Under the pieces are notes generated by a model. The model did no database searches. It saw nothing but the letters and a program-made list of their open reading frames with translations, and was not told where the DNA came from. This document shows, piece after piece, positions 5,704 through 39,389 of a stretch of 40,092 nt of DNA (its first letter is position 1; each line of letters opens with the position of its first letter). The DNA lies in contig NW_003124912.1 of NCBI RefSeq assembly GCF_000003605.2, positions 13,609-53,700 on the forward strand. The letters are read 5' to 3'. The position numbers were made by a program, and so were the translations under genes. The stretch comes from Saccoglossus kowalevskii (Eukaryota > Hemichordata > Enteropneusta > Harrimaniidae).

Positions 5704-5838
5704 CTTAACGGGTGGCAGTCGTCTTGCCGCGTCCTGTTCGATATGGGACTCATAGCGACGTATACAACGCGTGTAAAATACATTGTTTATTTACATGAAA
5801 TTCGAACACGCGCTGCGCGACGACCACCGCGCTTTAAA
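5704..5838 (+). repeat. Half copy of a CpG-rich inverted-repeat element
   Basis: This matches the reverse complement of the right part of the complete element at 26157-26366. Shared blocks include TGTTCGATATGGGACTCA, GCGACGTATACAACGCG, TTGTTTATTTACATGAAAT and CACGCGCTGCGCGACGACC. The opposite inverted repeat is missing here, so the copy is truncated at about 5838. It stands out from its surroundings by GC and CpG content. Confidence 0.75.
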
Positions 5839-14600: not shown

Positions 14601-17600
14601 GAGAGTACAACTTCACCTTTTTTCCCTTTCCTGAAACTTTGTTGTCCATTCTGTTGAGGTTTTTGGTTACTTGGAATGTCACATTCTTGATTGTCTTGTT
14701 ATTTTTGATGAGTGGATGGCTATCAGCAATCGTAACTATGATAACTCTGAAACAACAAAGATTTGAAATATAAGTCAATGACAGAATTTTCTCATACTAT
14801 AAATCACAACATATGACACAATCTGATTATAATAAATCCAAGCTTGTTTTTTATTAATCTATTTATTTTGTTTTTAAATACAATCACACCTGTGTATAGC
14901 AACCGCAAAAGAAACTTTGTTAAAATGGTCTTTATAGACAGGTGGTCTATATATGGACCCCCAACCCACACAATTGATTGTACTTTTGCGTTCAAGGCAC
15001 ATTTATTTGAATTGATCACAATCAAAATACACACATACAAACATCCAGAGTTAACACAACGAACTCAATGTGTAATGAATTGCAAACAACATTATCACAT
15101 GATTTAGGTGCTAACTGATATTTCACACTAAATGTGACGATATGCACCATATCATGTGATGGTAACGTTTTCATAGTTACGATATGAGAATTATACACTG
15201 GATAACAATAATAATAAAAACAAACCCTGCCCCCAGGGTTTGACCGGACCCCATACAGAAAAGTTCGTTTAAACCTGTTCTAAACTTTTTGGATTTCGGC
15301 ATTCCCATGATGTATCCTAATAATAAGGTCATTATGAGGATACTGCAAAGTATGCACTGAGACAGTATGCAGTTGCATCGACCTCCACTGCGCATCGGTC
15401 GTTACTCTTGCAGTATTGATTTCATGCATACTTAGCAGTACCCTGGTAATAACTCATTAATAATATATGAATCATGATGTGAAGTATGAATCTACAGATG
15501 AACATACTGCTATAAACACAAGGTACTGCAGATCTAATTCATATCATACTACATTCTCAAGTACACATTGACATTAACAGGAGCTTTTTTTGCTTTATCT
15601 AAAACTCATAAAGCACAACTTCAAAGCAGTTCCTTATTGTACAGCAATTATACGCCTTTATTGAGTCTAGGTTACTGTGTCATCTGAGCAGCCGCCGGGC
15701 AAATTTTTAGCATAAAGATGATACTGTTTGAAATATATTTAGTTAAATTGCTTGAGAATCTGTAAACGAAGTTGAAAGGACCTATTCAAGTGTAACGATG
15801 AATATTATGATACAGTGTATGAGAGCGTCATGGATCGTGGTGTTTTGCCGCATATTGATTTGACTGGTCAAGCATAAGAACACAGGTCATACAGAGAAGA
15901 TGTGAAGGACAAACATCAGATACATAATGAAATAAATATGGTACCATATTTACCCACTAGAAATGCATCTGTAATAGGAGTGCATATAAACCACTAGTCA
16001 CATTATATTATATTTTAACACCTTTATTACATTTTATAAACCAAATAGATATGTAATTCATTCTATAAGGTTGTAATAAAGAATTATCTTATCTTATCTT
16101 ATGTCTTATTTTTACTATGGACACACACCTGTCATTTACATAATCACAAATGCTACGAATAAAGCAGTACATAAATATCAGGTAAAATCATGTATTCTTT
16201 TCAAGTATTCAAATTAGGGATACAACAAGTTTCATTTCACATGCTTCAATGTGACTGCTGGTCATGTCTGTAAGATGACAAAATTTGCAGAAAAATTTGC
16301 AACTTGAAATTTTAATTTTATTTGTCCAGGCTCATGTACAGAGATACCATCTTTGATCGATTGTGTTTGTCATGGACATGTGTCCTGACATGCATAATTT
16401 GAAAAAAAAATACAAAACATGTCAACGATAGCTGCCAGTTGGTAATTTTGGATTCAAACAAGAAACAAATCGTCATGGAGATGTATCTCAACATGTATAA
16501 TATAATATATTCCTACATGTATGATGTATGTGCCAAATATGAATGAAAATGTTCCATAAGCCTTAGAGATATAGCAGTATGGACAAAAAGCGAGATGGCT
16601 GCCAGTCGGCCATCTTTGATCTGATTATGAAACAAACTGACATGGACATGTATTCCAATATGTATACTGTTTGTATCAAATTTGAACAAAAAGTGACAAG
16701 GCATGCGTAAGATACCACATTAAAAAAAACAAAATGGCTGCCAGTCAGTATGTCCTTATGTCCCGGATAAAGTACTAGGCACATGCAAAGAAAGAACATA
16801 TTTGGTCCACAGGGTTCAGAAATATGTTCAGATGGACAGAATGATGTGTAATAACAAGCAGCCAGTCGGCTGAGATAGCTCTGCTGTTAGCAAAGTACAT
16901 TTCAATTAAAGAACAGAAGATATCATTAGAAAATGAACAATATGTATAGTATCAAAGCAATGGGATTTGCTGTTTTCAACAAGAATTCAAAAATATCACT
17001 TTTCACTAAAAATGACAAAAACAATCATCAAAATTAGATAATTGAAGATATCACCACGAAATTAACAAATCTGAAAGAGGTCCACATGTAGTACCTATAT
17101 ATGTAATATAAAATCAATCGGACTAGCGATTTTCAATAAGAAGTCGAAAATATCACTTTTTACCGAAAATGACAAAAATATTCACCAATATTAGAGAATT
17201 AAAGATATCATTACAAAATGAACAAATCTGAGAGAGGTCCACATGTAGTACAAATACATGCAATATCAAAGCAATTGGACTTGCAGTTTTTAACAAGGAG
17301 TTGAAAATATCACTTTTTATCAAAAATGACAAAAATATTCACCAAAAGTAGAGAATTGAAGATATCATGAAATGAACAAACCTAAGAGAGGTCCACCCAA
17401 GGTACATATACAACAAGTATCAAAGCATTCAGGCTTGTAGTTTTCAAGAAGAAGTCGTAAAAGTAAAACATTGACACGGACGACAGACGACGACGGACAA
17501 TCACTCATATGATAAGCTCCGCTCGACAAAGTCGACAGCGGAGCTAAAAAACTACGATACAAGCTGATGAGAAAATTCCATCTGTATCAAAAACAAGCCT

Positions 17601-20600
17601 TGCATTTGTATCTAAAATTAAAAAATAAAATATTTCATCTCTCAGTTTTTACTGAGGAGCAAGTTGAACAAAATGACCGTATAACCAGCTACTTTGATAA
17701 GACATTTAATTAAAATGGTTATCGGTTAGAGATTCATTAAGTAGACAAAATGAGTCTAGCATAGAACCTTGAAATCACAAATACAAGACGATAAACTAAA
17801 TCAAAAGAAAACTTACTTGTTCGAATGCTGGAGAATACACAAATCTTCACCAGGCCTGCCATTTACATCTACAAGATGGAACAACACATAAAATAATTAG
17901 TAGTTATAATTAATAATTAAGACTATTATACATCTGTCACAGCAACACCATAAGTTACAGTGTGCCATAATTTTGAGGTATTTTACATGGTATTTTAATC
18001 TTATCATATTAGGATTATGCGCGTAAGTGTCCTCTAATAATAAAAAAAACATGGCTGCCACCAGAGTTTTACGGGATTCAACACAAAGAAGTTCGCTGAT
18101 TCTGTTCTAAACATTTTGTATTTAGGCATTCCCATGGTGTATCCTTGGAAAGAAAAGATGTATAATAATAAGGTTTTTATGAGAATACCTATGTATGCAC
18201 TCAGACAGTACGCCGTTGCATCAACCTCTTCTGCACATCAGCCGATACTTCCGTTGTACTGTCTTTGTGCATACTTCGTAATATCTTCGTAATAACCTTA
18301 TATTACTACAAGAATACAAAGTACGCATTAGGACAGAGTGAAGATCAACAGCATATGCAAAAGATGTAATGAAAATTTAATTGTTTTTATTGAATTGTCG
18401 TAATATACTGAAAGGAAAATATTCTTCAGTAAAATCAAAATTTCATCAAAAATGAATAACACTAAAAATATATTCACAAATTTACCTTTAAGTAGATAAA
18501 TATTATTATGAATTTAGCTGACTATATATATATATATACAAAAAGAGGCCCTCAAACTTATATTTATCTATTTGTTTGTTTATACAATTTTTTTTTTTAT
18601 TATCTATCACTTTCTATAAATACAAATTTTTGCTTTAAACTAATGTAAAATTATTTACAAGGAGGCCAAAACGTTATTATTCTCATAATTAAAAGTTATT
18701 ATAACCACGGTAGTTTTGACCGATGAATATTCCATGCGATTCTGTACTATGTTATTATTGTTAGTTTTTTCTGCTTGTTTTCATAATTCAGTGAAATACA
18801 ACAGGCAAAATTCCAGCGAAATGCATAATATAATATTCGTGCCAGCAGGAACAGATGTATTCAGTGGCAGGATTTCATTTCCATCACACATCATTCAGTC
18901 AACTAAAAATTACTTTCCACTAATTTGCATGTTATTAGCATAAATATATGGCATGCTACAACAGAGAATACAGTATTACATTGATCTATACAGCATAAAA
19001 AATAATGCCTTTTTAAGCTTTACGATAACTTGAATACGAAATCTGGGAAAACTACATAAAGCTCACAGATGAAAGAGCTCTACAAATGTAAGAAAATGCA
19101 ATTTACAGTTTTTTATATGACTTTTCATCAGTCCACTATCTTGCTTCTCGAGCAGAGGATTATGGGTAAAAGTATAACATCATATCCATATTGTGAGAAA
19201 TTTCCTTTAAGCTTAGTTTATGGAAAAACGGGAGGCGTTGCTTGCATTGATTTCAGAACATGCAAGCTCTGTTTTCATTTGGCAATTAGTTCCAGCAGCA
19301 AAATAGGGAACTTTCAACTGTCATCTATCTAACAATACCTGATGGAGCACATGGGTTAAAAAGGTGAAAAGGTTGAAAGTGACTCGTGAGAAAAAAAAAT
19401 ATTGCATACACTCATATACGACATGTGTCAAGCTTACGAGTAAAAAGTTCACTGACAAAGTCCAAGGGTATGAACAAAACCAATCTGTGAGAACCGTATG
19501 ACCTTAATGACTTTTTGTCTTTCAATCATTGACAGAGGTAGTGGAAAATATACAATGATTTACGCATCAGTAATGTTGATATTTCAACACCAGGATGTAT
19601 GTGTAGCTATTTTTTATAATGGGCATAACTAATTTGTAACCATAATCTATACAAAATAAATTTTCAAACATGCTAGTGTCTTAGTTAAACCATTAAACCA
19701 CAGTCTCTCTATCATCAGTCTTGGCAACAGCGGAACCTAATTTTTGTTGCTATCTGTGAATGGGGTAAACAGATGATTCACACCTTCGAAAAACAGCATA
19801 GGGGCAATACAAATCACAGCATGGAGACTGGGGTAAAACACCTTGAGAAACAACACAAGGTGAATAATAGCAGGTATGAAATCAACGACTGACACTATGC
19901 TAATTGTATAGCTATGCTTTGCGGAATACCGATGGCCCCAGAAGATAAGTTGTTTCACACCTAAAACAATAGTCGTTACTGGATCAGTGATAGAGGGACT
20001 GTGTTTAAACAGGAACCGACCACTGCTGCATGACTTGTGGACAGTCAATTCGTATAGCACCCTCTACAGGCCATGTTTGTTTAAAAAGACTGGGAAATTA
20101 GGAATTGCTCTCCTGTAGACAGTACCGGAGTGATTACGAAAGATCTTCAAATTGATAGTGATACTAGTAATTAGCTATTACGGGTCTTGGTTCGCTTCGG
20201 TGAAAGAGCCACAAGGGGGGGGGGGGTTACTCTCGTGCAATAGGAACAGGGGGGATACAGTATGAACCTCACGTCCATGTACTGTCAAACAACAATTTTT
20301 GCACTAAAAAGTAAGTGTTGAACTATCTGTTCATCAAAACTGGAATGTCAAGCTACCAATTCAATCATACACTGGAAAAATTCAGAATATAACATTCAAA
20401 ATGCAGAAGTGAGTGTTCAGTGTTGTCGTTGTTGTTGTGTTTTAACATATTGACAGACTAGAAAAAGCTTTTGAAAATGAAACAATATTTAATTATAATT
20501 GCTCAAGAGACTAATCCCAAAGTTCAAAATGTCATATACCATATCGATTGAAAAATTTAGATAGCATTATATGTTCTGATCAGTCTGCTAGCAATGAATT

Positions 20601-21907
20601 ACATGCATGAATTGTATGTGGAAATAATTTGTATCAGAGGTACATTACTTGGGGTTTGCAATGCGCAGAGTACTGTGTATGGTGACGTCATGCCAAGATC
20701 CCATTCAAGTCTCATCTGGTAGATAGCGAGACTGATGCTACTACCTTTTGACATGACATAGGCGGTTTGTAATAAAACAATAAAACATGTATTACCACAT
20801 TCATAGTGAAAAAATGTAATACATTGAAAATGTACAGAAAATATAGTTATTGTAATCCGTCATATCGTGAGCAGCTATTTTGATCCACCTGGACATCCCA
20901 GTATCCTAGTTACCTCGGGCATGCGCATTCGCATTTTTCTGAGTTGGAACGCTTATGCAAGAGCAAGATTGAAACGGGATGTTGGTATCATGTCACCGTA
21001 GTTGCGAACCCCAAGTAATGTACCTCTGTTTGTATATATATTTGCAATCTTGGTGAATTTTTTAATAATATTTGAACTATAACCAGTGGATTACAAGAAG
21101 GCATTTTTTGTTTTAGGACATCTATAAATATTTTAAAAACATTTATCCCAAAAAATCCTTGCACTTCCTACAAATGCAGAGAACAGGGTTTCATTGGCTA
21201 CAGTAATTATTTGGTAACGCCCCTTACCCATGAGTCTTTGCGAGATCCCTTCAGTCATTGACAGATTTACTGTCATGAAAGCAAAATTACAGTGATTCGT
21301 TCGCTGAAATAAATTTAAAAGACTAAGAAGTATAAGTAATACCATTATTGTTTGTATCAGAATGTTAACTGGCTGAGTTCTAGACTGGAGGTATTTATAC
21401 GCTAAGGCTCGTGATTGGTTGCTCTCAATTACCATTTAAAATTTATAAACATTTATAAATATGTGATATAAAACAAATTCACGCCTTCGTGAAACCTGGT
21501 GTAACGAACTACAAACTTATTATTATTTATTTTATATATTTGTAAATTTGAATATTGTATTGTTCTTGTGGTGTGTATGTTCATAAATTAAATATTCACT
21601 AGATTATTTATTACCAAATAAAATATACTATTACTATACACACTGTACAAATTAATTAAAACCCTACTTCATAGTATTTTAGTACTAGAACACAAATGTC
21701 AAATACGGGGGGGGGGCTTTTCTTCGCATGGTACAAAAACGCTTTAGAAATAGCATTTTTGGAAACAAACTTACCTATTTTGTACCCTCTCCTAAAATAC
21801 CTGTCGACTACTGAAGGATATGAACACTTTAAAATCCTGTCTGATTTCGGCGACGCCTTGCACATCGACTTTGACTCCTGTTCAGTAGAAATTGAACACG
21901 CCGCCAT
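11614..21907 (-). CDS. ABITRAM: ABITRAM (actin-binding transcription modulator; FAM206A/Simiate), complete, five exons
   Basis: Small glycine-cleavage-H/lipoyl-like fold protein that in mammals locates to nuclear speckles and binds actin (family knowledge). Coding exons in order are 21775-21907, 17817-17868, 14617-14746, 12772-12918 and 11614-11748. They total 597 bases, giving 198 codons plus stop, and all junctions keep frame with GT/AG borders. Recognisable blocks are YPSVVDRYFRRGYKI in exon 1, EDLCILQHSN in exon 2, ADSHPLI, KTIKNVTFQV and NKVSGKGKK in exon 3, SCVNGKLVEVNE in exon 4, and STDGFISIILPKF and TKDEYEKEIL in exon 5. These line up in order with the vertebrate protein (about 181 aa); the extra length is mostly at the N-terminus. 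The start is an ATG in good context (AATATGGCG). Introns of 3.9, 3.1, 1.7 and 1.0 kb hold many mobile elements. It is transcribed away from the C1GALT1-like gene. Identification is from remembered family sequence. Confidence 0.95.
13438..13520. mobile_element. Palindromic MITE, internally deleted copy (ABITRAM intron 3)
   Basis: AGGTTATCACAAGAA at 13438-13452 faces TTCTCGTGATAACCT at 13506-13520, matching 14 of 15 bases as an inverted repeat. The inner stretch TTCATGCATACTTTGCAGCA matches the right arms of the copies at 15205-15465 and 18035-18305. Confidence 0.7.
13990..14215 (-). pseudogene. Degenerate duplicate of ABITRAM exon 4 within intron 3
   Basis: The block around 14070-14150 matches the 5' half of exon 4 and its flanking intron at 12865-12950. 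Shared strings include AATGATGCACAGAGG versus AATAATGCATAGAGG, CCTGTCTCATT and GTCAAAATGA. In the exon-4 frame the copy reads WANETGPLCIIT and is then stopped by TGA TAG, so it cannot replace the exon. Weaker similarity extends on both sides, suggesting a local segmental duplication of the exon with flanks. Confidence 0.75.
14545..14555. repeat. C homopolymer followed by A run
   Basis: Eleven C bases and then A-rich sequence. Similar C or G homopolymers of 10-12 bases lie at 3182-3193, 20215-20226, 21707-21716 and 31206-31217. Confidence 0.9.
15205..15465 (+). mobile_element. Palindromic MITE, long copy (ABITRAM intron 2)
   Basis: The 3' part is a long inverted repeat. AATAAGGTCATTATGAGG and CTGCAAAGTATGCA at 15322-15356 face their near-complement at about 15425-15460. 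The unit preceding it (GTTCTAAACTTTTTGGATT, GGCATTCCCATG, TGTATCCT) is shared with the copy at 18035-18305, so the repeated unit is about 250 bp. Confidence 0.8.
16220..16770. repeat. Imperfect tandem repeat, period about 167 bp ('GGCTGCCAGTCGGCCAT' type)
   Basis: Matching blocks recur at about 167-base spacing, for example CATGGAGATGTATCTCAACA at 16472 and CATGGACATGTATTCCAATA at 16639. GATGGCTGCCAGTCGGCCAT (about 16593) and AAATGGCTGCCAGTCAGTAT (about 16732) also recur. It lies directly before the 5' motif of the element at 16866. Confidence 0.6.
16866..17547 (+). mobile_element. Helentron-associated (DINE-1-like) non-autonomous element with 155-bp tandem repeats and terminal hairpin
   Basis: The 5' part has GAGATAGCTCTGCTGTTAGC. 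Then come about three and a half copies of a repeat whose GAGGTCCACATGTAGTAC block recurs at 17077, 17234 and 17388 (spacing 157 and 154). A stretch rich in GACGACAGACGACGACGG follows at about 17477-17496. At 17515-17545 a strong hairpin has arms AGCTCCGCT(..)CGAC and GTCGACAGCGGAGCT around an AAA loop, then an A run. The 5' motif TAGCTCTGCTGT matches the complement of the right hairpin arm. This order (5' motif, tandem repeats, 3' matching motif, hairpin end) is that described for Helentron-associated elements. It sits in ABITRAM intron 2. Confidence 0.65.
18035..18305 (+). mobile_element. Palindromic MITE, long copy (ABITRAM intron 1)
   Basis: Same family and orientation as 15205-15465. The arms AATAAGGTTTTTATGAGAAT (about 18167) and CTTCGTAATAACCTTAT (about 18286-18302) form the inverted repeat. 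The inner blocks TATGCACTCAGACAGTACGC and GTTGTACTGTCTTTGTGCAT also face each other. Confidence 0.8.
20628..21035. mobile_element. hAT-like MITE with long terminal inverted repeats and 7-bp target duplication
   Basis: The element is 20635-21028 (394 bp). CAGAGGTACATTACTTGGGG at the left end is exactly complementary to the right end (CCCCAAGTAATGTACCTCTG), and pairing continues inward (GGTGACGTCAT versus GGTGACATGAT). It is flanked by TTTGTAT at 20628-20634 and 21029-21035. Ends beginning CAGAGG and a 7-8 bp target duplication suit the hAT superfamily; hAT duplications are usually 8 bp. There is no transposase open frame. It lies in ABITRAM intron 1. Confidence 0.85.
21167..21495. repeat. Dispersed repeat with terminal TTCACG hairpin, rearranged copy 2
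   Basis: Block A on the minus strand (21240 down to about 21175) reads GACTCATGGGTAAG, GGCGTTACCAAA and GCCAATGAAA. Block B on the plus strand (21437-21495) reads TTTATAAACATTTATAAATA and TTCACGCCTTCGTGAA. Both blocks match 3235-3380, but here block A is inverted relative to block B. Confidence 0.55.
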
Positions 21908-23826
21908 ATTGATTAGTTTGACCTAGCTAGACCCTTTAACTTAATGTCTATTCGAAAGTCATGACGTCGTGCACACTGACTGTTTCAGTTAGTGATAGAT
22001 TTGCGTAAGCGATGAATTATCTTCTATGATAATTTCAAATATTTTTTTTCGGGATTGGTACAAGCATAAAGCTAAAAAAAAAGCTTTATGAAACAATTCT
22101 CTGCCATCAGTCCCAGAAACCAGTTACCGCAGGATGGCGCGTGACCCTATTTACGCATTATAGTGAGGTTATCGGACTTATTCTCATGAATAAGACGATG
22201 GGGGAGCTCGTTCGCCGGCAAGAGAAAAAAAAAATGTCATCAACTACGGTGGTAAACTTTTCCCAATTTGCGACATCTGTGGCATAAATTTGATAAAGGT
22301 AGAACCGGCAGAAGCTAACTCAGTGGATATCGGCCATTTTGCCTGTATAAGTTTGTAAGATTTATCATAGGTTCTATGGCAGAGATGTTATACTATATAT
22401 GAAAATTGTAATGTATTGTGAATGATGGGGTACTTTTTGTTGTCCTCAATTATTTCAAAAATCTGAGTTTTAAAAAATGGTAAAAAAATGCAATTTTTCT
22501 TTAACATTGTGTTTTATTATGGAATTATGCTAAAAATAGCGATTTATTTTTTTAAAACATATTAAAAGTAACACACTGTAACACAAAAAAAGAATGCTAT
22601 TTCATGGTGCCATGGGACAATAGATTCATGAGTAGGCTTCACAACCGCGAGCACGAATATCTACTATAAAGATCCTTGCCATTGGGCACAATTTTAGGGT
22701 GTACCCTTGAGTAATGTAGTATGTTTGGTTAATTTATGAGCTTGCAGTTGGGAATATATTTGTTATACTGTCGAATCATTGAAATAAACACGTTATAAGC
22801 ACATTTATAATGGTATTTGTTTGAAGAATCGATATACAGTATTTTGGTTTTGTAAATGTTCTTCAAAAGTAACATAACGCAAAATAAATAAATACAAAGA
22901 ATCGGAATATTAATAGTGTTGCACACCCCGTGGGAAATGTACCATATGACGTGCTGTCATTTTCAGAAAAGAAAAAAAAGTACCGAACGTGTTAAGCAAA
23001 GAGACAGTGAGATTTTACAGAAAGATCCAACCTGCAAACTCTACAAATTACTATGTTTTTCGTTGTAAAATTACTCACTTTTAATATACTTATCAAACAT
23101 ACTTAGAACATAACTAATTGGAGTGTTTTCTCGAGGTGACATTTTTTTTCTAATTTGGAATACAAATGGCTGGAAGAAATTGTTTTTATGCAAATATAGT
23201 GTTTACATCTGTAATGCAACAAATACTTGTTCTGTTTTTTCTGTGTTAGACATAATAAATCCCACAGTCCTAACAGGCAATGCGCACATTTTTAAATTTA
23301 GTCTCTCCTCCCACAAAAATCCCATTACACGCCTGATTATGCATCGACTACACTATAGTAATATACATAATTCGCACAACATTGGTGACACGACCGTGAA
23401 GGTGATTTTCATGAAGAGGTCAGTGTGTATAGATAATATTGTGTTATAGATGAAATTATTGTAATACTAATTTAATACACTTCCCATTATGGAGTGTAAC
23501 ACCTGTTCTATATTGATCATTACTGGATGTACGTACGGCAACATATACACAGCAACTTAAAACATGTTCGCCACTCTCATCGACCACTTTTCAACATGTT
23601 GATGTTTTCTATCAATTCTATAGTGGCTTAAAATTAATGGGAAACCTCGCTGGATCGTACAGTTTCGGAGATGTAAAAATCATGGCTTTCCACGATGGGA
23701 AAATTCGATATTGCATTCATACGTAACGACTAAGTTGGAAAATTCATCTACACCCCTGGATACATTACAATATCTGCTGAATACAAACAGCGCATTTATA
23801 TATCATTGTCTTTGGAAGTGTGCGAG
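21908..23826. other. Shared upstream region of ABITRAM and the C1GALT1-like gene
   Basis: About 1.9 kb between two divergent start codons, so promoters of both genes probably lie here. Near ABITRAM it is somewhat GC-richer, with a CRE-like ATGACGTCG at about 21961 and GATGGCGCGTG at about 22133; no TATA box is convincing. A perfect 9-bp-arm hairpin (CATAAAGCT facing AGCTTTATG) lies at about 22065-22090. A dispersed repeat occupies about 22288-22650. Confidence 0.5.
22288..22650 (+). repeat. Diverged copy of the TTAA-flanked element, opposite orientation
   Basis: This aligns with the reverse complement of 33291-33824 over several hundred bases. Shared blocks include CTATGGCAGAGAT, GTACTTTTTGTT, TTCTTTAACATTGTGTTT and ATGAGTAGGCTTC. 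The left end (AAAGGTAGAACC) is a decayed form of the AAGGTAGAAGCC terminus. Confidence 0.7.
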
Positions 23827-26514
23827 ATGTCCCTGTTACGTCTTCTTCGCGTGTGGGTAGCCACACTGTCGATCGGAATGCTGGTGTTTACTGGAATTGT
23901 ACTGTTCACATATGAAATACGCACACGGACTATGTGGCGGAAACAGATGGGCGACTTAGTCAACATAGAGTACAGGGACATAGAACAAGGAAAGATCTCA
24001 GCCAACACTAGTAGTCTGCGTGAACCCCATGTGACAAACGGTGAGTCGGGTTAACTTTAATATATAATAATAATAACTACGTAAACAACGTGTAGTTGCA
24101 CAACTACCTAATTCTTCCATGTAAGTAGTAAGCCTCTAATTTCAGTCCCAAACGCGACGATAGACCTTACATTACATGACGCCACAGGCCAAAATGTACA
24201 AAACATTGTTTAGTGTAGCTGTTGTTTTTTTTTTTTTTGAGGAAAGAACACAGCGAATTTATAAAGAACGGGATAAATTGTGCAATTTGTTTGACTCCCA
24301 AACATTCAAACAAAAAGCGAAATTCATCTTTAACAAAAAAGTGCAACATGCATAGTAAGTCACGTTTTCTATTTCTTCTAGGGGTATTCGTTCACCATTT
24401 TCACTTATCACATGATACAGACACCAACTTGAATGGACATGTTATTGGTTAGAGAAAATGCGTGCAAGCATGAGTGTATCTATATATGGCACATTTTAGA
24501 CGCGTATGCAAATCAATATTTGCATCACATGGAACATTTGGAGTGATAGTCCGGGCAATTTTGACAGACTAGTATTAGTATGATAAACATTCCAAAATAA
24601 ATGCGCTCACGACTGCTGGTTTCGATTTATTTCTGGTTAATTTTAATAATGCCGTGCCTTTACAATTTTAACTATTGGGAAGGTTCGATTCAAATTGAAG
24701 AATATATGTTATGCCCACTATACTTTCATTTTTTGTGAGTTCATGTCATCCGGATGAGACAATTTCTTCATGGTGATTATAGTTTTCCATTATATAATGG
24801 AATATAATCACCCATAATGCATTGGTGTGTGTGTAGTAATATGCTTAGTAGTGCGAAATTTGAATTCGGCTCGAACTGGTCGATGATATGCTGGAATTGT
24901 TAACCCCACGCATGCGCAGTGAAATACTGATAAAAATACATTACTTGCACATGTCATATGCTTAATGACTTTACAATATGAAACATTCGTAACAGATCGT
25001 ACAATTGTTCCAATCGTTTTACACCATTTCTTTATTTAGCTTTCAGTTAATAACTGAATCGTTCGCTGGTAACCATGACAATATTGAATAATTTCGCTTT
25101 TCTTTCCAGATAAGTACTTCTCAGCATCATCGAATCATGATTTGAAAAATGAAGTTCGGGTACTCATTTTTGTGTTGACGTCTTCTAAGACGGCTTCTGA
25201 GCGGCTATCCCTGGTACAGGAGACATGGGGACGACGCTCAAATAAGATATTATATCTTAGTAGTAATGCTGATTCCAACATGTCGATCATCGGTCTGGGC
25301 GGGACGGATGGTTACGAGACACTATGGGGAAAAACTAAAAGAGCATTTTCTTACGTGTACAACAATCATTTGAACGATGCTGATTGGTTCATGAAAGTCG
25401 ATGACGACACCTACGTGGTTGTTGAAAATTTGCGGCGCATGCTCCGTGGTTACAACGCGTCGAAGCCGCTCTTCTTTGGACACCGTTTTCGTTATCCTTC
25501 TTCCGTCCGCCAGAGTTACATGAGTGGAGGCGGTGGTTACGTACTCAGCAAAGCAGCTCTGGCAAGATTTGTAAGGCTCGGACTGCCAAACGCCGTTGCG
25601 TGCGAGCAAAACGATATGGGTGCCGAGGATTATTTAATGGGAAGATGTCTCGAGAGAGTTGGTGTAGTACATGGAGATTCACGGGATTCCAGAGGCAGAC
25701 AACGTTTTCTTCCCTTATCACTTTTCCATCATTTCAACGGTAATTACCCCAAATGGATGTATGAATATGAATATTATCCGTTAAGATCAGTGAGTATATT
25801 ATTTTCTCATAATAATTTGTCAACATAATCTAATTTTAATAATTTGTTTTATAAAGCGGTATTGTATGTGCGCCTTCGAAATTCTTGTATTCTATCCTAA
25901 GCATTCTCTTCATTTTTAGAAATAATTATATATTTTACAATTTAAACTGAAACGAGGTGTTTCTATTGGCCGATTAGATAACTTTGGAACGTTTTCAAAT
26001 GACGTTGTTACGCACTGTGCTCTTTGGATAGACTCAATTGCCATTGAAATGACTAAATATTGGTGCATATTTATAATATAAAGAGAATGCATTTGTTGCG
26101 CTGTAAAAAAAATGTATTTTACAGACAGTGTAGACAGGTGCAACGAAAGCGTCATTATTTAAAAAGCGATAGACGCCACGATGCGTCCTGTTCGATGTGC
26201 GTCCCATGCGACGTATACAAGGCGCGTAACGCGTAAAGGGCGGTGGTCGTCGCGCAGCGCGTGTTCGGATTTCATGTAAATAAACAATATATTTACACGC
26301 GTTGTATACGTCGCTGTGAGTCCCATATCGAACATGACGCAGCACGATCATTGCCGCCCTTTTAATTAAATTTCACCAGTCTGTTCTTGTTCATGTTTTT
26401 TGTATGTTTCAGGGCAGGCAGTGTTGTTCTGATAGCCTAGTGAGCGCACACTACGTACGTGGAAATGACATGCATTTGATGGACTACCTTATTTATGGAC
26501 TAAATCCTGAATAA
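23827..26514 (+). CDS. C1GALT1: Core 1 beta-1,3-galactosyltransferase (C1GALT1-like, glycosyltransferase family 31), complete, three exons
   Basis: Golgi enzyme that adds galactose from UDP-Gal to GalNAc-Ser/Thr, making the core 1 O-glycan (family knowledge). Exons are 23827-24040, 25110-25789 and 26413-26514, with phase-1 and phase-0 junctions and GT/AG borders; the product is 331 aa. It is a type II membrane protein with a short basic N-terminus and one membrane segment at residues 10-28. The catalytic domain has DWFMKVDDDTY (metal-binding DDD at 169-171), SYMSGGGGYVLS (207-218), GAED (242-245), GRC, GDSRD and CCSD (302-305). Sequons are at N60 and N187. The last exon encodes only 33 residues and stops soon after CCSD..HYV, so the C-terminus is shorter than human (363 aa). 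The cysteine pair of human LCWV and QRCNK is absent. The in-frame TTG at 23806 is not used as start; the first ATG is 23827. It could be one member of an expanded C1GALT family. Confidence 0.93.
24772..24812. repeat. 41-bp near-perfect palindrome in C1GALT1-like intron 1
   Basis: GGTGATTATA and TCCATTATATAATGGA, followed by TATAATCACC, form a hairpin with a few unpaired bases. No matching flanks were seen, so a tiny MITE or chance palindrome are both possible. Confidence 0.6.
26157..26366. mobile_element. Complete CpG-rich terminal-inverted-repeat element (C1GALT1-like intron 2)
   Basis: The left arm has GCGTCCTGTTCGATGTG, CCATGCGACGTATACAA and GGCGCG. The right arm is its near-complement (CGCGTTGTATACGTCGC, CATATCGAACATGACGC). 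Ends begin and finish around TTAAAA/TTTTAA. It carries no protein frame. GC and CpG are far above the surrounding intron. A half copy lies at 5704-5838. Confidence 0.8.
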
Positions 26515-27390: not shown

Positions 27391-27393
27391 TAC

Positions 27394-29640: not shown

Positions 29641-31356
29641 TACACCTACCAAGTGACGACAGACCTACCAAGTGATGACCCCAATCTTTGTTTCATAATT
29701 TCTATTAATATTTAATCGAATTTAAGTTTGAATTAATATTAATATACCTTACTAAACCTAAGCTTTGCAAACATTTCTATATTTAGTCACAGGATATTCG
29801 ACTTTTATTTAATTAAACTTGAATTAAAATGCAATTCTATGTTAAATTGCATTGAACTGAGTTTAATTAAACTTTTAATAAATTTATGACTTTCCACAAG
29901 TACAACACTACCAGCTTTGTAAGATTTCACTTCAACTTGGGAATGAAAAAGGGTGGACTGTTTTTTTTGAAAATTCTGGTTCCTAAATAGTCTCGGGGTT
30001 CCAACAGCCAAAAATCGCTTCTTCAAAATGGGATACAAAAATGACAAATTCAGCTGAATTCTGTTAGCAGTTGACTTAATGTTTTAACAGATTATTTTGC
30101 AGTGAAAATTTGTTATTTTTTCATAATTTGTAGGAATCTGAAAAACCTGTTTCACAACTAGTCTCTGTTTAGTTTCAAGCCACATTTCAAGATGGATGCC
30201 CCCATATCAGAAATTAATTAATTACATTTATTTTATTATGTGTACACAAACTGACTGATCAAAACACAGTTCTTTTTACACTGGAAACTCAGACACTGAA
30301 GAGTTCAGTGTAAAAGAAGCAAACTGCTGGACACAGCCATGCATGGCACAGTCCCAGTTAGTTATCAAATTTAAGATGTAGAGTTTTGTTTATAGTAATA
30401 TACATGTAGTTGGAACATAAACATTATGTATATGTGAAGTTTGAATGTAATCGGTCCAGGCATGCAAGCACGCAAATACAGAGGTGAATTGATAAGTCTT
30501 GTTTTCGAACTCCGTCCGTATGGGGACTAAAAATATCAGACTTCTGGGCCCTTTATGACTAACAAATTATTTTAACCAAACTGGTCATCAAGTCTATTTT
30601 GTCATAAATTTCAGGTTTACATTGTATCAGTGATACTGGAAAACGTTTAGTCGAATTTATTTTTGTTTAGTTATTTATCAATAAATGGATAGCAAGAGCT
30701 CTTGGAACAGATATATTTATGGTAAATAAGCCCATTTATATACAGCTTTGTAAACATAATTAGTAATACCAGTAACAAATGTTATAAACAAAGTACATTG
30801 CTAACACGTGTTAGAGGCACTTCAAGAAAATACAAGCACAATTCATGTTCACAACAATAATTTACATATTAACAGTAAGATGATTTTATTTTGATGTCAA
30901 AATATAAATTTCGGCTTACATGCATTTTAATTAACTGGTGATTCATTCCTAATAGAGTAAGTATTGTATAATAAAATACACATCAACTGCCAAAGTCAAT
31001 TGAACTACCCGTGAGAAATTCTGCTCCCACTATTATACCGGTACATTTGTTCTCAAGATTTGTAAATACAAGACATACTCATTCCATTATTATAATTAAA
31101 AGTTGTAGAAAATATAGAAATGTTATGTACAGATTTACAATATTCCAATCAAATATTTGTATGACAAAAACGTTTAATTTTACCTAACTATTTACAATCT
31201 GCACTGGGGGGGGGGGGTATGAAAATTATGTTTGAAAAGTGTACAAAACTATTATTTGGAAAATATTTTACATTACACAATTATTTATGTGAGCAGGTCA
31301 TTAGTTTGCCTAATGTTGAAAACATGATGAAAGCTGTATAATCCTTGACAGAGTCT
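29641..31356. other. Intergenic AT-rich DNA and probable 3' UTR of the next minus-strand gene
   Basis: No exon seen. A repeat segment at about 30425-30500 (GTGAAGTTTGAATGTAATCG, ACAGAGGTGAATTGATAAGT) matches 37545-37630. A 12-base G run lies at 31206-31217. AATAAA on the minus strand at 30885-30890 could serve the gene ending at 31357. Confidence 0.5.
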
Positions 31357-34300
31357 TTATGATACACCAGTATACGTCGAAAAGGCAGATCCATCAGGTA
31401 TAAGTGCCTGATTGGTAAAAACTTCTTTAATTGGAATGAAATGCTGTTCAATGAGAAAAAAAACAAAATCAAAAAATTTACATATATAATAACGTAGCGT
31501 AACGTTTACAACCTTGTCTCATGAGAATGTAGACATTAATTAACAAATAGGAATTCAATTCAAGATTAGATACAAACTAAAGATATAAGTACTGCTTGGT
31601 ACAATCTTTTCCATGCAGGGCAGATATTGAAATACAAGTTTTTATTTTTGATATGTGACTCTTAAAAATATAGAACATAAAAACGAGTGATACCTGTATA
31701 ACACAGTATTTTCTTGTTGACGATGAATAACTTTTATCATACATGCAACAGCTTATATAAAGCATTAAAACTAAAATAAGGCTTGAATTCAAATGAATTC
31801 TTGGCATGAATGTTTTGATGCCCATTTATGCACATGTATAATGCAATTGTGACATGTTGTTGACATTGTAAATACCCGGTACCTCTTGGAATTCAATAGC
31901 ATTTCAAATTTATATGTGACAATCAGGTAGTTTTGAAACCGGCGCATTCAAGATATTAAATGATGTTCATGCATACTAGATTGAGTAATTTTAATATGTT
32001 TCTTCTTGAACGAATCACATTTATTTACACTGCCCAGCTGTTCTGTTTTCATGACCGTCGTAAAAGGAGTGCCAGCCAGAGTATAATATATAAATATAAA
32101 AAATCAAATGACTGATATTTTCATTTGAGATACTGTTTAACGCATGATATTTTCTCTCCTATAACAATATAACATTTTCATGTATGATAATATCTATATC
32201 TAAACGAAATTTTGCATGGAAAATAATGGCTAAAATTTAATAATTGTGACAGACATTTTCTGTAATATGTACCTTTCCCATCATGATAATATTCTCGCAA
32301 CCACATATTTACATATTATACAGCAATTATCATGAATTTCAATGAGGTTTCGACAGCCAAAATTAATCTGTTTATAGTATAGTATAGTATATATCTTTGA
32401 GGAAAGTAAGGAATCACACATGTGGGAATAATGGTACACCTTGCATTTGGCTAACATACAAATATTGTTTACGAGCAACATTTATTATATATCCATATCT
32501 ATTCAATGTTACATGAAAGAAATGCCTCAGCTCCTTATTCTTTTGTTTATGGTTAACAACTCCCCTGATGAAAGCCTTCGCAAATAGCTGATTTGAATGG
32601 TACCGTATATGTCAAACAACGATGTATTGAAGGTTTCACATGTATAAAACAACCTACCATGTCATCTCCACCATCTAGTATCTTAGCAACAGGATTCATG
32701 AAGTTTCTTTCCACACGTGGTTTCGCACTAAACTTGCTGAGTGACCTGCATGTTGATAGCGCAACTTCACTATCTAGAAGCGCATCATGGAAGTGTTGAT
32801 TTCCTGTAGGGAGTAAAAATAGTTTCAGGTATAGTGACTTAAAAATGAGAAAATACCACAGAAATTATATATAGCAGTGGCACTGGCAAGTATGAAAGTT
32901 GTTCAAAAGGCGTTGTCTTTACCACTAAATGGCACTCAAATTATAAAAATTATACAAATACGTGGCAAAAACTATAGACAATCAGATGTATCATATATTT
33001 GTCAAACTATATTCTTTGAAATATGCAAGAAAAGATTTTGTAGAATGATTTGGTATATACAGTCAGAGTGTAACTTTATAACTAAACTTAACGTTTAGCT
33101 AGATAATGAAATTGAACAAAGCAAAGTCAGTTGACAGCCAGCCAGGGAGTTAAGTTGCCCTCAGACTGTACTGTATATACGGTACTGTAATTTAGGCAAC
33201 AGGGACAGGCCCTAATTTGGTTCTAAAATAGGAGTCATAAAATGTTGAAAAATTAGTCAATCAAGAAAAATATCCTTATGTTCAGTATATTTAAGGTAGA
33301 AGCCTAGTCATAAAATTTGACAAAATTGGTGATAAATCGCATGACAATGTTCATTAGTTTATTATGTACAATCATGAAGCTAATGTCTCATGGTACATTA
33401 TTTTGTGTGTTACAGTTATACTTGTTGAGAAAAGTGTCCTAATATTTCTTGAAAATTGCTATTCAATGAAACACAATGTTAAAGAAAAAATGCATTTTTT
33501 GACACTGTTTAAAACCCAGATGTTTTAAATAATTCAGAACAAAAAGTACTCCATCATTAACAATATATGATTTTTTCAGTCTATGTCACAGGTTAGATTT
33601 TGAGATATAGCATAATATCTCTGCCATAGGAACCTGTGGTAAAAGTGTTATAATAGTGTCAAAATGGCGACTTTCCACTAAAATACAACTATCAATTTCT
33701 TGAAAAAGGCTGGTGACCCCAACTTTTTTTAGGTTGAATATCCTTAGATTGCCTTGGAGTACAATTTATTGCAAAATGAATAAATTCTTGGTTTTTAACT
33801 TTATGAGTAGGCTTCTACCTTAATGTAATATGAAATTATTTTAAAAATTTGTTTGTATGTTTTTTCATACTTGAGTTGATCTGATTACTGATGCTGCAAG
33901 TACAATCTTTTGGCTTTGATTTTGATGGGAAAACGGCACGATTTTTTTCTTTAAATCAAAAACTGAGCATTGAATAATAATTTAACACTTTTTATGGTGA
34001 TAACAAGCTCATTGATGGAACAAATCACGCTAGCCACAATAAACATCATACTCCTGAATAGACATCAATGACTACAGGGAAAAACTAAATTAGACTCTAA
34101 TTTAGGCGTCAAGATTGAAATGTTCAAAAAATGATGCATAAATTAGAGATTTTATGGTAGTACTGGTAGAAAGTAACAATGTAATGTAATATCATCAGTT
34201 ATTGGTACTCTAGATTGATGGCACAGTGTACTTAATTCTCTTGTGATCAGCTTGTGGTGAAATGGATTGAGCTGAAAGGTAAGGTGCCTCCCTATTGTCC

Positions 34301-37300
34301 AGTTTCTGTTATGCAGGTTGTCCATGGCCAACTGGCACCAACTCCCCCCTCTTAATTGAGTATGGTTTTAATTTTAGCTAATTTATCACAACTGTTCTTA
34401 CAAAATTCAGTACTTTATTTTATTCATGTTTCAGATTTTTGACAAAATCACAAAAGATTTTTAACAAACCATTGTAACCAATGGGCTTACCTATGGTTCT
34501 GTGTTTCAGTGAATGCAAACCAACAGGAGATTTGGACCTCATGTTAGCACCGAGTGAAAGTGAACCTTGAATCCTCTTCTGATTATAAAGACCAGGTGCA
34601 GAACAGACAGATGATTTGCTTTCTGGAGAACATGCTTTATTTAGACCACCACTTGTAAATCTGTTTGAACTCCAAGCAGAAGTTTCAGCTTTGTAGCTTT
34701 GAACTGCATGGTCTTTGTCTGCTGATGAGTGATCAAGTGGGAAATTGTTCTTTTCCGAAACAGGCAATCTGTTGTCATGAAATATAGTCGTTCTTGCTTC
34801 TGGAGAAATTGGTCTTACAGCAGGAGAGTCAACAGAGAGACTAAGGGGAATCGGTTCTTTAGTGACTAGTTGACTGCAACTTTGCATGGCCAATGGAGTT
34901 CTAATTGGCAAGTCAATGTCTGCATATGCATGCTTGGAAAACGATGGTGTCTGAGGAAGATAGCGAGACAATGTTGTTTTCCCGGCTACAATTGGCTTTG
35001 GTGTGTGGATCGAACGTTGCAAAGACTTTGCAGTAGAGTGTATGGCAGTCCAAGGTGTTGAAGTAGTAGTTGCTACAGCAATTTGTTGAGACACAGAAGA
35101 AGGCACAAGAGAAAACGATTCACTGTTTTTAGATTCTTGTGTCTGATTGAATAGGTAAGATTTATCTTTCAAGGCCTTTGTTTCTTGTTTGGTATCGATA
35201 TATGGTTGTTGGTAAAAGTTGGATGAAGTTGTGGCCATTTGTGAGGAGACTGCAGCAATATTTGATGGAATTTGGGTGAGAGTTTTTGAAGTCTGAGATT
35301 CATCAGTTGACACAGGGTGTTGTTGTCCAGTGGTTATGGCATTTGTAGCTGGATTCCAAGCATTCAATGGTCTGCTAGTGCCATGTTCCAAATCAGACTT
35401 GACAGATGAAAGAGTGTCAGAGGGAAATAAATTGATTGGTTTAAAAGCTGTAGATGTTTGGTTGAAATCAGATTTCTTTGAAGCCGTCACTTTGGGTGAT
35501 GAAACGGGCGACAGTACTGAACTGACAGTGTTCACATGTGCAGTGGTAGGTAACTGCATCCCGGCTGATGACTTAAATGCTGAACTGCCATATGACGAGA
35601 GTCTTAAATCACTTGTTTGTGCATGACTTGGTAAAGAATACAGTTTATCATTACTGACATGGGCTTCGTAAAGCCTGGCCTTTTCTGAGTACCCATTTGA
35701 ATTTAAAATAGAACCAGTACAAGAACTGAAAACTGAATTACTCGCTTGATGTTGATTGTGGTACAACGATTGCTGGTACAAGTGGTCTGGAGCTGATGCA
35801 TGATGAAACAGAGGTCTCATTGCTGAATCAGATAGATGTGGTTCACACGGATTCGCCAGTGGATCAATGTTTGTGTGCAACAACCCAGTGAGACTATACT
35901 GAGATACTGATGGAATTTTTTCATGACATTGAGATGTCAGCAGTGTGGTTGGCTGATTGTGATCTTGAAATTGTTGTTGAGATCCATGTGTATACATCAG
36001 ATTTACATTCTGGTACACTGGCTGTGACCCACCTAGACCATGCTGAGGTATTGCTGAAATTGTTTTATGATATGAAGATGACTGTAGTGAGGTTGGCTGA
36101 TTGCGATAATTGTGGTCTTGAAATTGTTTGTCAGATCCATGTGAATACATCAGATTTTCATTCTCACCACCTATTGATTGATGTTGCTGTTGATTCAAGT
36201 TCATGTTCTGTGGAGTCTTGTTTAAAGCTACTGCATGATTGGTAGGTGTAGCCGCAACAGTTGAAAATGTGTTCTGTTGTTCATATTGACGAGTTGAACA
36301 ATGACTACCAGGACTATGATTCAAACTGGAAGGGATATGCGTTGATTGAGTCATCATGGCAACAGCCGATGACGTCTGATTTGGGGTACCCCATGCACAT
36401 GACGCTATATTTGGCTGTGACGGCTCTTGGCCGTTCTTCATTAACAATGGTACATTAAGCAAATCATTTTGTTCCAGTTGTTTAATTTCTAATTCAAGTA
36501 GTCGCTCAGCCTCTTCAACTTCCTAGAGAAAATACAAATTATCAGAATTAAAAATGGAGAATCTTGCCATAATCAGAGTGATGTAATAACAGTTATATCA
36601 ATAGTTCTACTCAGTCACCTTTACCAACTGATTAAAGATAAAAACAATCACAGCAAATTTACACAAGTAGTAGTCAGTGTGCTTCTTTCATGCAATACAA
36701 TGACCACCAGCCATATTCTTAATGCCAAGGAATTATAAGATAAGGATATACAACTTTCATAAACATGTACAGTGATATGCCATCTCACAAGAATGGAAAC
36801 TCTTAAGCATTATGTGCAATTGTCAATCAAACGTATTTGATTGCAAAAACAGAAAATGAGTGATAATCACTGTATCCGAACAGACAAAACATATTATATG
36901 CTTTGCAAATAAGCATAGTCTGAATTATAAATGTATAATGTTTGAATAGTTTTGAATCAAGAGCTGCATTTATTAAAACAAAATGGTCGACAGTCAGCAA
37001 TTTTGTATCGGATTTGAAAATCAAAAAATGCATTAAGGTGCCATAATTCAGTTGAAGCACATACATAAGGCAGAATTTGACAAAAATAACTGTTGACAAA
37101 TAAGATACTATCTGATTAGTCAGACTGTTATGGTAGACAATCAGGTACAATCTTGTAGGTAGCTTCACATTGATGCAATATGTCCATTGTATGTACCATT
37201 TTTGAACGAAGTTCATTCGCTTCCGAAATGGCAGAAATGGTTGTGCGTCAGCCATTTTGTATCTCATCGTTAAATGAATACAATTGCATATGTGTGACAT

Positions 37301-39389
37301 GTGTACAAAGTTTGAACATGGACATGGCTCCGGTATTCACTAAAACAGAATGGCCAATTTGAATCTAAAGTTGTGCATCAAGTCCCATAAGGCCCAATAT
37401 ATATGTACTTTGAGAGTTTGAATGCAATTCTTCAAATCACAACGGAGATCAGATTTGGAATTGCATTTTGATGATAACCACAATTCGGCCATCTTGAATT
37501 AGATCATGAAACAATTAATGTGCATGTGTCGCCTAAGATTGTGTGATGTATGTGTGAAGTTTGAATGTGATCGTACCAGGCATGTCTAAAACACAGGTGA
37601 AGACAACATACACAGAGGTCAATCAAGTCCCTATTGTCAGACTTGATTATTCTCAACTTATAAATCAGTGATATTTGCATGAATATAATTTCATTTACCC
37701 TGAGATGTTTCAGGTCCTCTTCTCTTGCTGCAAGTTCATGCTGTTGTTTCTCTTGTTGAATCATACTGTAAGGAGTACAGTAATCCTTAGTATCATCATT
37801 CATCATAGGAAGGCTGTTTTCCTGTAAATAAAAACATGAATCAATACTGAACAGAACAATTAAGAAATCAAAGGAAGCTTAGAAAGAACTCCCTTGTGCT
37901 GAGAGTATTGAAGACATTAAAAATTAATTCAAAATTACTTGTACATGAGATATTGATGGAAGAGCTGAAAACTAATTATGTAAATCAGGTAACTAATATG
38001 AACAGAACAGAACAAAAAAATTATGAATTATTATGCTAATTAGAGAATTAATATGAACAAATTTTAACCCAAAATTAATCAGGCCTGTCTATTGTCCTAG
38101 AGCACTTATGTACCAAATTTTATTCAACTGTGATGATCAGTAATTGAGATATCAGTGTTAATTAATTATATTAATTAGGTGATTAATAAGCATAAATATT
38201 TACCAAAAACTAATTGGGTTTCTGCATAGTTCGCTTTAAAAGTTTCATTAAAATCCAATTTGTGGTTCTTTATATATCAGTAGAACATTATGCAAATTAG
38301 CTAATTAATATATACTGATATTACCCAAAAAACTATCAGGTCTGTGCAGTGTCCTATGACATCTATGTACCAAATTTCATTGAAATGTGATGATTACTAC
38401 TAGAAATATCAAAAGCTGAAAATTAATTAATTATGCAAATTAGGTAATTAATATGTACTCATATTACCCTAAAAACTATCAGGTCTGTGCAGTGTCCTAT
38501 GACATCTATGTACCAAGTTTCATTGAAATGTGACAATTACTACTTGAAATATCAAAAGCTGAAAATTAATTAATTTTGCTAATTAGGTAATTAATATCTA
38601 CTGATATTACCCTAAAAACTATGAGGTTTGTGCAGTGTCCTATGTCATCTACGTACCAAGTTTTATTGAAATGTGATGATTAGTACTTGAGATATCAGTG
38701 GAAAAGCCGAAAATTGATTTATCATTATGCAAATTAGGTAATTAATATTGGACAGATTTTTACCCAAAACTAATCAAATCTGCACATTAGTTTGGAGCAT
38801 CTGTGTGCCAAGTCCAATGAGTGGTTCTTTAAACCGGACACACATACAAACACACATACAGACACACTAACTGCAAAGACTCCCTTTTTGTGCTTCGCAC
38901 TTAGGAGTCAATAAGACTTATCATAGTTGGTAAAATACAAGGTCTATCAGAATGGCATCTATCAGAAAACTGCCCTGTATATTGGGTGCTTACTTTAAAA
39001 GCTTTGTCATTCTCAGGACTGGTCAGTAGATCAGCCCACTTTACAGGTCCCTTGGTGTTTGGCTATAGGAAAAAAAGATATGAAATGGTTAAACATCAAG
39101 CTAAGATAAGATAACACAAAAACCTCAATCACTGGTAGACTGAAAGCATCTTGTGAAGCGACACCAGTGCTTATGCTGTACTTCTTATGAGATAACAAAA
39201 TGGCCATTACATTGCATGTTTTTTCTCCATCAGAACATGGAAAGATAGTATAGTAAAACTTACTGACACAAAAGCTTGTGGTTTTTTTGTTATGTTGTAT
39301 TTTGTTTTTCTGACAGGTAAATTTGGCGATGCTGTAGATATGCTCTGTTCTTGTAATAAAGACACTTTCGGGTTCAGCACTCTCAAAGC
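31357..39389 (-). CDS. Unrecognised coiled-coil, Ser/Thr/Gln/Asn-rich protein, last six exons (5' partial)
   Basis: Exons in order are 39264-39389, 38994-39062, 37699-37821, 34491-36522, 32658-32803 and 31357-31443. All have GT/AG borders and keep frame across 2583 bases (860 codons plus stop). The visible N-terminal part has GPVKWADLLTSPENDKAF, then a charged heptad-like stretch (EKQQHELAAREEDLKHLR, EVEEAERLLELEIKQLEQ) predicted as coiled coil and split by an intron. The 2-kb exon encodes about 650 residues of low-complexity S/T/Q/N/P-rich sequence, with an internal duplication around NLMYSHGS and NLMYTHGS. The last two exons encode a more ordered C-terminus (DALLDSEVALSTCRSLSKF, NFMNPVAKILDGGDDM, HFIPIKEVFTNQALIPDGSA). 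No membrane segment or enzyme motif. The composition would suit a scaffold, centrosomal or RNA-associated protein, but that is only inference. The 5' exons lie beyond 39389 and probably outside the window. Confidence 0.8.
33291..33824. mobile_element. TTAA-flanked MITE (piggyBac-like) in an intron of the unrecognised gene
   Basis: Bounded by TTAA at 33291-33294 and 33821-33824, with inverted ends AAGGTAGAAGCCTAGTCATA and TATGAGTAGGCTTCTACCTT that differ at one base. The interior (about 526 bp) has no transposase frame. TTAA target duplication is the hallmark of the piggyBac superfamily, although known piggyBac ends usually begin with CCC. A diverged relative is at 22288-22650. Confidence 0.75.
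35884..36156 (-). repeat. Internal duplication in the large exon of the unrecognised gene
   Basis: Two units of about 40-43 codons, 36156-36028 and 36003-35884, begin NLMYSHGSDKQFQDHN and NLMYTHGSQQQFQDHN. They share spaced residues after that (QPTSLQ/QPTTLL, YHKTIS/CHEKIP). The copies have diverged at many positions, so the duplication is old. Confidence 0.85.
36880..37640. repeat. Array of diverged 'CAGCCATTTTG'-type repeat units
   Basis: Units of roughly 150-170 bases carry GTCAGCCATTTTGTATC, AGAATGGCCAATTTGAAT and TCGGCCATCTTGAATTAGAT, followed by TGTGTGAAGTTTGAATGTGA or GTACAAAGTTTGAACATGG. The same family is in ABITRAM introns (13061-13261, 14356-14530, 16220-16770) and at 10951-11560. 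Confidence 0.55.
37886..38912 (+). mobile_element. Helentron-associated (DINE-1-like) element with 143-bp tandem repeats and terminal hairpin
   Basis: The 5' part has ACTCCCTTGTGCTGAGAG. About six units follow whose block GGTCTGTGCAGTGTCCTATG recurs at 38339, 38482 and 38625 (exactly 143 apart), with older units at about 38083 and 38217. Then come a CACACATACAAACACACATA stretch and a hairpin at 38878-38909 (GACTCC...GTGC TTC GCAC...GGAGTC). The 5' motif resembles the left hairpin strand (ACTCCC...TTGTGCT). It is in an intron, ending 84 bases before the exon at 38994. Confidence 0.65.

Follow-up and report, generated by a model that had tools for sequence, protein, structure and literature searches.

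We analysed a stretch of 40,092 nucleotides from the hemichordate Saccoglossus kowalevskii (positions 13609-53700 of contig C1747, hereafter the window), which carries two repetitive elements, E1 and E2, and the 3' end of a third, E3. E1 and E2 each combine a tandem array with short inverted repeats near the two ends, and most likely they are copies of two non-autonomous families of the Helentron type, similar in plan to the HINE and DINE-1 elements of other animals. Their anatomy, which includes subterminal inverted repeats (subTIRs), is as follows:

16853-17549, minus strand: E1, probable non-autonomous Helentron-type element, 697 bp counted from inside the T-run (copy alignment with sharp boundaries)
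17513-17546, minus strand: 5' hairpin of E1, consisting of the subTIR (TAGCTCCGCTGT, 17535-17546) and an inverted repeat around a 3-nt loop (conserved in copies)
17476-17498, minus strand: microsatellite-like stretch of E1, GTCC/GTCG/GTCT (sequence; order as in Cg_HINE)
16950-17462, minus strand: tandem array of E1, 157 bp x 3.3 (Tandem Repeats Finder)
16876-16887, minus strand: 3' subTIR of E1, ACAGCAGAGCTA (motif search)
16859-16872, minus strand: 3' palindrome of E1, CAGCC-GACT-GGCTG, followed by the CTTGTT end (sequence and copy alignment)
37866-38911, minus strand: E2, second probable non-autonomous Helentron-type element, about 1046 bp, or 1048 as end-paired (copy alignment)
38878-38909, minus strand: 5' hairpin of E2, subTIR and inverted repeat around a GAA loop (family form GACTCCCGTGTGC-GAA-GCACAAAAAGGGAGTC)
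38837-38868, minus strand: microsatellite-like stretch of E2, GTGT/GTCT (sequence)
38017-38782, minus strand: tandem array of E2, period 143, three clear monomers and diverged ones
37888-37899, minus strand: 3' subTIR of E2, GCACAAGGGAGT, which reads GCACACGGGAGT in the family form; a tail of 22 nt follows and ends in GATT
37822-38993, minus strand: phase-0 intron of a minus-strand gene (splice signals and reading frame)
39716-40092, minus strand: 3' end of E3, the third element, which continues beyond the window into an assembly gap (N gap, L009)

Both elements were assigned to the minus strand, because this reading yields the published order of HINE and DINE-1 elements, i.e. 5' subTIR, inverted repeat, microsatellite, central repeats, 3' subTIR and 3' palindrome (PMC4067079 and PMC7492417), and places a T-run at the 5' end. 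The first-pass annotation of the window had the polarity reversed: the structure it called a terminal hairpin corresponds to the 5' subTIR and the adjoining inverted repeat, and the 3' subTIR is what it named the 5' motif. Its proposal that the 5' motif copies one strand of the element's own hairpin survives in the form of the 12-bp inverted repeats, with the ends swapped. The elements themselves proved real, with the ends it had placed at 16866-17547 and 37886-38912 shifting to about 16853-17549 and 37866-38911; its array period of 143-155 bp suits E2 (143) and is slightly short for E1 (157).

In E1, the 5' subTIR is preceded by the T-run at 17547-17551. The E1 motif TAGCTCYGCTGT, with at most one mismatch allowed, occurs at three sites in the window compared with 0.12 expected, and none of 100 shuffles reached three; two of them are the ends of E1, and the remaining one, at 39738-39749, had escaped the first-pass annotation. 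Counted from TAGC, the family consensus is 693 bp long. On the minus strand it starts with a T-run and TAGCTCCGCTGTCGAC-TTT-GTCGAGCGGAGCTTA, which folds into the 5' hairpin with -13.1 kcal/mol (DNA parameters), and finishes with GCTAACAGCGGAGCTA-TCTCAGCCGANAGGCTGCTTGTT. Across copies, the 3' palindrome reads CAGCC-N4-GGCTG (CAGCC-GAYA-GGCTG and variants), the fold of the family form being -5.6 kcal/mol. The subTIR pair of 37 copies is TAGCTCCGCTGT/ACAGCGGAGCTA, within the approximately 11-15 bp that characterise the class. A likely minus-strand exon, which no family match confirmed and whose donor resembles GTAAGT, lies on the same strand as E1, about 265 bases upstream of it. The intronic position proposed earlier for E1 was not confirmed.

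E2 follows the same plan up to its 3' subTIR. The family starts, on the minus strand, with a T-run and GACTCCCGTGTGC-GAA-GCACAAAAAGGGAGTC (fold of the 5' hairpin -8.7 kcal/mol) and finishes with CAGCACACGGGAGT-TCTTTCTAAGCTTTCTTTGATT. Its subTIR pair, ACTCCCGTGTGC/GCACACGGGAGT, shows 0-3 mismatches between repeats in 22 copies, and in the window copy the inverted repeats are eroded, with 9 of 12 letters pairing. The core of the array (38287-38748) has a period of 143 in 3.2 copies (Tandem Repeats Finder), and self-comparison traces diverged monomers back to about 38017. Of the 1172 bases in its intron, about 1046 belong to E2, whose end lies 44 nt from the splice acceptor. The upstream exon, CCAAACACC...GCTTTTAAA (PNTK...ENDKAFK), is followed by the donor GTAAGC; the downstream exon, GAAAACAGCCTTCC... 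(ENSLP...), follows TTTATTTACAG and joins the ENDKAFK exon in phase 0. The intronic position claimed earlier for E2 therefore stands, although not on the strand opposite the host gene: since the published order of Cg_HINE and DINE-1 puts E2 on the minus strand, element and gene share a strand.

E3 ends like E1. Its last 60 bp or so match the 3' end of the E1 consensus in 51 of 57 aligned columns, with an identical 12-bp 3' subTIR, and no match to E1 was found in its interior. According to the rule given in PMC4067079, at least 11 identical subTIR letters define a family and at least 80% identity over the last 60 bp a subfamily; E3 and the E1 consensus fall together at both levels despite their unrelated interiors. 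A further stretch of E3 (39959-39975) shares 16 of 17 letters with part of the E2 monomer, in a search whose pattern was built to fit both.

Copies were sought in the whole genome assembly (G000; 572,110,611 bases on 4830 contigs). For E1, the best 40 of 4116 first-look candidates were scored, giving a sample of 39 genome places and the window copy; for E2, the best 40 of 2519 candidates were scored and 30 loci analysed. In both cases copies were picked by their resemblance to those in the window. Both ends of E1 were located in 37 of the 40 places (L026, L043 and L046, each with one E1 end absent, were left out, as was a second pairing of 892 bp at L016), and both ends of E2 were paired in 22 of the 30 loci, the eight left out being seven with a 3' end only and L081, in which both ends were detected outside the pairing filter. 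At positions inside the ends of both families, 70-100% of copies agree on the commonest letter, compared with 20-69% in the flanks, the exception being one loop position of the E1 3' palindrome (40-49%). E1 and E2 are thus members of many-copy families, in which hairpin, array and motif occur as one unit in most of the copies analysed, as the first-pass annotation had supposed. It was also right that the two share a plan and no sequence: nothing above chance was found, the best local alignment scored 30 in one orientation, where shuffled sequences averaged 25.2 (maximum 30 in 50 single-letter shuffles), and 25 in the other, where the average was 24.1. What both families do share is the spacing of the 3' end, where the subTIR is followed by 22-23 conserved nucleotides that end in TT.

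The families differ in length. E2 copies with both ends measure 1028-1994 bp, with about 4-10 monomers (a rough count from summed blast lengths), compared with a nearly constant 681-711 bp in E1, a constancy that perhaps reflects a search favouring copies like the one in the window. The arrays are probably passengers, of clearly variable length in E2.

Some copies adjoin one another. On contig C3777 (L032), two E1-type units lie head to tail, with the junction GCTTGTT/TAGCTC and a shared TT. We rejected this dimer as proof of read-through replication; as the second unit is more diverged and not clearly closer to its neighbour than to other copies, it is more likely that one copy inserted into the T-run of an older one. 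On contig C4447 (L043/L060), an E2 3' end is directly joined to a 5'-truncated E1, possibly as a composite or through a nested insertion accompanied by loss. On contig C1118 (L063), an E2-type copy that has apparently lost its 5' hairpin (GACTTTGCAGTT compared with GAC...GTCTTTGCAGTT elsewhere) lies inside an E1-type array. Viral contigs gave no exact match to the two end patterns, in a collection from which records near the genome of the window may be absent.

Insertions are found in T-rich sites. In 20 of 22 copies of E2, the T-run at the 5' end counts 5 or 6 letters, and T accounts for 48% and 43% of the two flanks in E1 and for 38% and 53% in E2, compared with 32% in the window. There is no consistent target duplication in either family; the flank matches given below are too few for a rule, yet they are not zero. 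Empty sites were recognised for both families:

20883-20998, unoriented: empty paralogue of the site occupied by the E1-family copy L012 on contig C1912; the target, CATTTTTCTGAG, lies at about 20932-20943

As for E2, the flanks of L086 match L003, L081, L089 and L030, with the T-run at the junction, and those of L087 match L027. Among the E1 rows listed, L016 and L021 are located within E1-type arrays. None of the empty sites shows duplication beyond Ts. Flank joins that matched their own locus only (L024 and L032 for E1, L073 and L090 for E2) were excluded from this tally.

The first-pass annotation had further suggested that the paired ends co-evolve. This was not borne out. At the variable CpG of the E1 subTIRs, 37 copies (the second unit of L032 left out) comprise 27 C/G, 5 T/G, 4 C/A and 1 T/A, i.e. 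changes at the two ends are unlinked, which is independent decay. In 22 copies of E2, the two ends of the same copy differ by 0.86 letters on average, compared with 1.01 for shuffled pairs. As no clear paired change emerged in the copies studied, the agreement of ends within each family looks inherited from its founder.

Finally, we examined the genome for a possible replicase. The Pfam domain Helitron_like_N gave eight matches on seven contigs (11 candidates, all scored) and none in 14 control genomes. On contig C2261 (L049/L057), the domains PF14214, PF05970 and PF03372 follow one another in a copy split over three reading pieces: a Rep motif, VEFQQCGSPHTH, with the serine of the Helentron type, is followed by PIF1 and Exo_endo_phos. 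In PMC4067079, it is the S of the GS-PHxH Rep motif 2 that is described as Helentron-type. Judged by these domains, the host encodes a predicted Helentron-type Rep-PIF1-endonuclease. A scan of the C2261 region for inverted ends of its own stayed at the null level (19 candidates, 20.05 in shuffles), and end queries of E1 and E2 against the Rep loci returned a single match of 15 nt (E 0.18), which lies in two loci that overlap. L052 and L053 encode a divergent Helitron_like_N protein in a long open frame, the translation of L052 having no visible GS/GL-PHxH motif of Helentrons or Helitrons, and a Rep-like frame at L050 passes into a long minisatellite of coding-like appearance (MSTTKVSPHIVDVNYQGV-type units).

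Taken together, the unit structure, the T-rich sites, the lack of a consistent duplication and the empty sites uphold the proposal, already made in the first-pass annotation, of Helentron-associated elements akin to DINE-1. We put the probability of this reading, in which each element belongs to its own non-autonomous Helentron-type (HINE/DINE-1-like) family, at roughly 0.9. Several observations weigh against it. i) The enrichment of T in the flanks is modest. ii) Flank matches of at least four bases occur in 3 of 38 E1 rows (37 places, L016 being paired twice) compared with 1.06 in shuffles, and in 2 of 22 E2 copies compared with 0.63; with the ends held fixed, E1 rows match in five bases once and in six bases once. 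TCTTA flanks E2 of the window on both sides and could be a 5-bp duplication; we take it as chance, because no match length recurs. iii) Some of the empty sites are imperfect, the 5' end of L012 being damaged and the junction of L016 showing small losses. iv) No 3' palindrome is detectable in E2, where the fold reaches -0.7 kcal/mol, compared with -5.6 for E1, and comprises only AAGCTT; E2 behaves as a HINE, but one without a defining feature. v) By blast, the Helentron region of C2261 gave only weak matches to E1 and E2 (best E 0.12), and no E1 or E2 ends were found near the Rep pieces on the six other contigs, in at most 1500 bases on each side. A Helentron-type gene is thus present in the host, as the first-pass annotation had anticipated, but none with E1 or E2 ends was found in the DNA searched, and for lack of such ends the C2261 gene was not assigned as their partner.

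The observations under ii) also bear on the alternative that survives best, namely that a cut-and-paste transposase mobilised E1 and E2 through their 12-bp inverted repeats, which would make them miniature inverted-repeat transposable elements (MITEs) or fold-back elements. A MITE of a DDE transposase has inverted repeats at its very ends and a target duplication of fixed length. E1 and E2 do have such repeats near both ends, and TCTTA does stand on both sides of the window E2; however, 22-23 conserved nucleotides extend beyond the 3' repeat, the ends are asymmetric, with the E2 hairpin on the 5' side only, flank matches are rare and of no fixed length, and the empty sites lack duplication beyond Ts. 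We therefore regard this origin as improbable. Still less credible are canonical Helitrons (Helitron1), which would account for rolling-circle style insertion without target duplication: according to the criteria of PMC4067079 and PMC5148889, these have 5'-TC and 3'-CTRR ends and insert between A and T, whereas E1 and E2 run from a T-run and subTIR to GTT or GATT and lie in T-rich sites. That the elements are ordinary dispersed fragments of satellites, flanked alike by chance, as their satellite-like arrays with roughly 4 to 10 monomers in E2 might suggest, is refuted with near certainty by the fixed, sharply bounded modules that flank the arrays in 37 of 40 E1 places and 22 of 30 E2 loci and by the E1-type 3' end on the different interior of E3.

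A model of how the two Helentron-type families might have spread can be outlined as follows. From what is established about Helentrons and Helitrons, elements of this kind depend on a trans-acting Rep-helicase for their copying, via a single-stranded or circular form. According to the model, the process would begin with a Helentron Rep-helicase-endonuclease, encoded at another genomic locus, nicking the T-flanked 5' end that carries the hairpin of subTIR and inverted repeat, and one strand would be peeled off while replication passes through the array. Replication would stop at the 3' subTIR and the 22-23-nt tail ending in TT, and the strand or circle would then be joined into a T-rich site without duplicating it. 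The least ordinary points in our data are E2 without a 3' hairpin and E3 carrying the end of E1 on another interior. As for the former, one might speculate, although we consider it rather unlikely, that E2 represents a rolling-circle family stopped by the 3' subTIR and its conserved 22-nt tail alone, and that one host Helentron replicase accepts both the ends of E2 and the hairpin ends of E1, recognising the subTIR and its spacing to TT and not the 3' hairpin.

Outside the elements, the window encodes a GDF8/GDF11-like TGF-beta ligand with propeptide and mature domain (402-1554) and a Fringe-like glycosyltransferase. Other dispersed repeat pairs of 72-90% identity lie at 5707-5836 and 26234-26362, at 15207-15453 and 18036-18296, and at 22411-22518 and 33465-33568.

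E1 and E2 represent two families that are probably new, of a known kind of element. Defined by exact ends and empty sites, they add two many-copy families to a class known to spread satellite-like repeats in animal genomes, and E2 takes up most of one intron. As they have the same spacing of 3' subTIR, 22-23 nt and TT, one with a 3' hairpin and the other without, they also offer a natural comparison for what a Helentron requires at its 3' end. The closest description is that of Cg_HINE from the oyster Crassostrea gigas (PMC7492417), which likewise has subTIRs, an inverted repeat, a GTCY/GTCC microsatellite, a variable spacer, a short array, a 3' subTIR of 11-12 bp and insertion at TT without duplication, occurs as unrelated families in one genome and is not linked to an autonomous partner in that study. 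Its 3' palindrome is shared by E1, and none is detectable in E2. The likeness is one of architecture. Because Cg_HINE consensus monomers measure 138-181 bp, the period of about 150 bp shared by E1 and E2 is not new. The Pearl elements of bivalves, formerly classed as MITEs or fold-back elements, have up to six central repeats of about 160 bp (PMC7492417); with them, as with Cg_HINE, the comparison is by description only.

DINE-1 and HINE-Mo (PMC4067079) share with E1 and E2 the subTIRs, microsatellite, central repeats, T-rich target and absence of duplication, and DINE-1 also the inverted repeat beside the 5' subTIR; their 3' stem-loop is present in E1 and not clear in E2. The subTIRs are 13 bp long in DINE-1 and 12-15 bp in HINE-Mo, compared with 12 bp here. 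Unlike those of E1 and E2, the subTIRs of HINE-Mo are described as palindromic and without the inverted repeat, and its 3' subTIR lies 38-60 bp from the end, compared with 22-23 nt. The Helitron2 elements of Fusarium (FoHeli; PMC5148889) are more remote: they are fungal, measure 5-11 kb and carry Rep-Hel genes, with few, low-copy non-autonomous members, and they differ in terminal letters and target. They have, however, asymmetric terminal inverted repeats like those of E1 and E2, and some of them, like E2, have no 3' hairpin.

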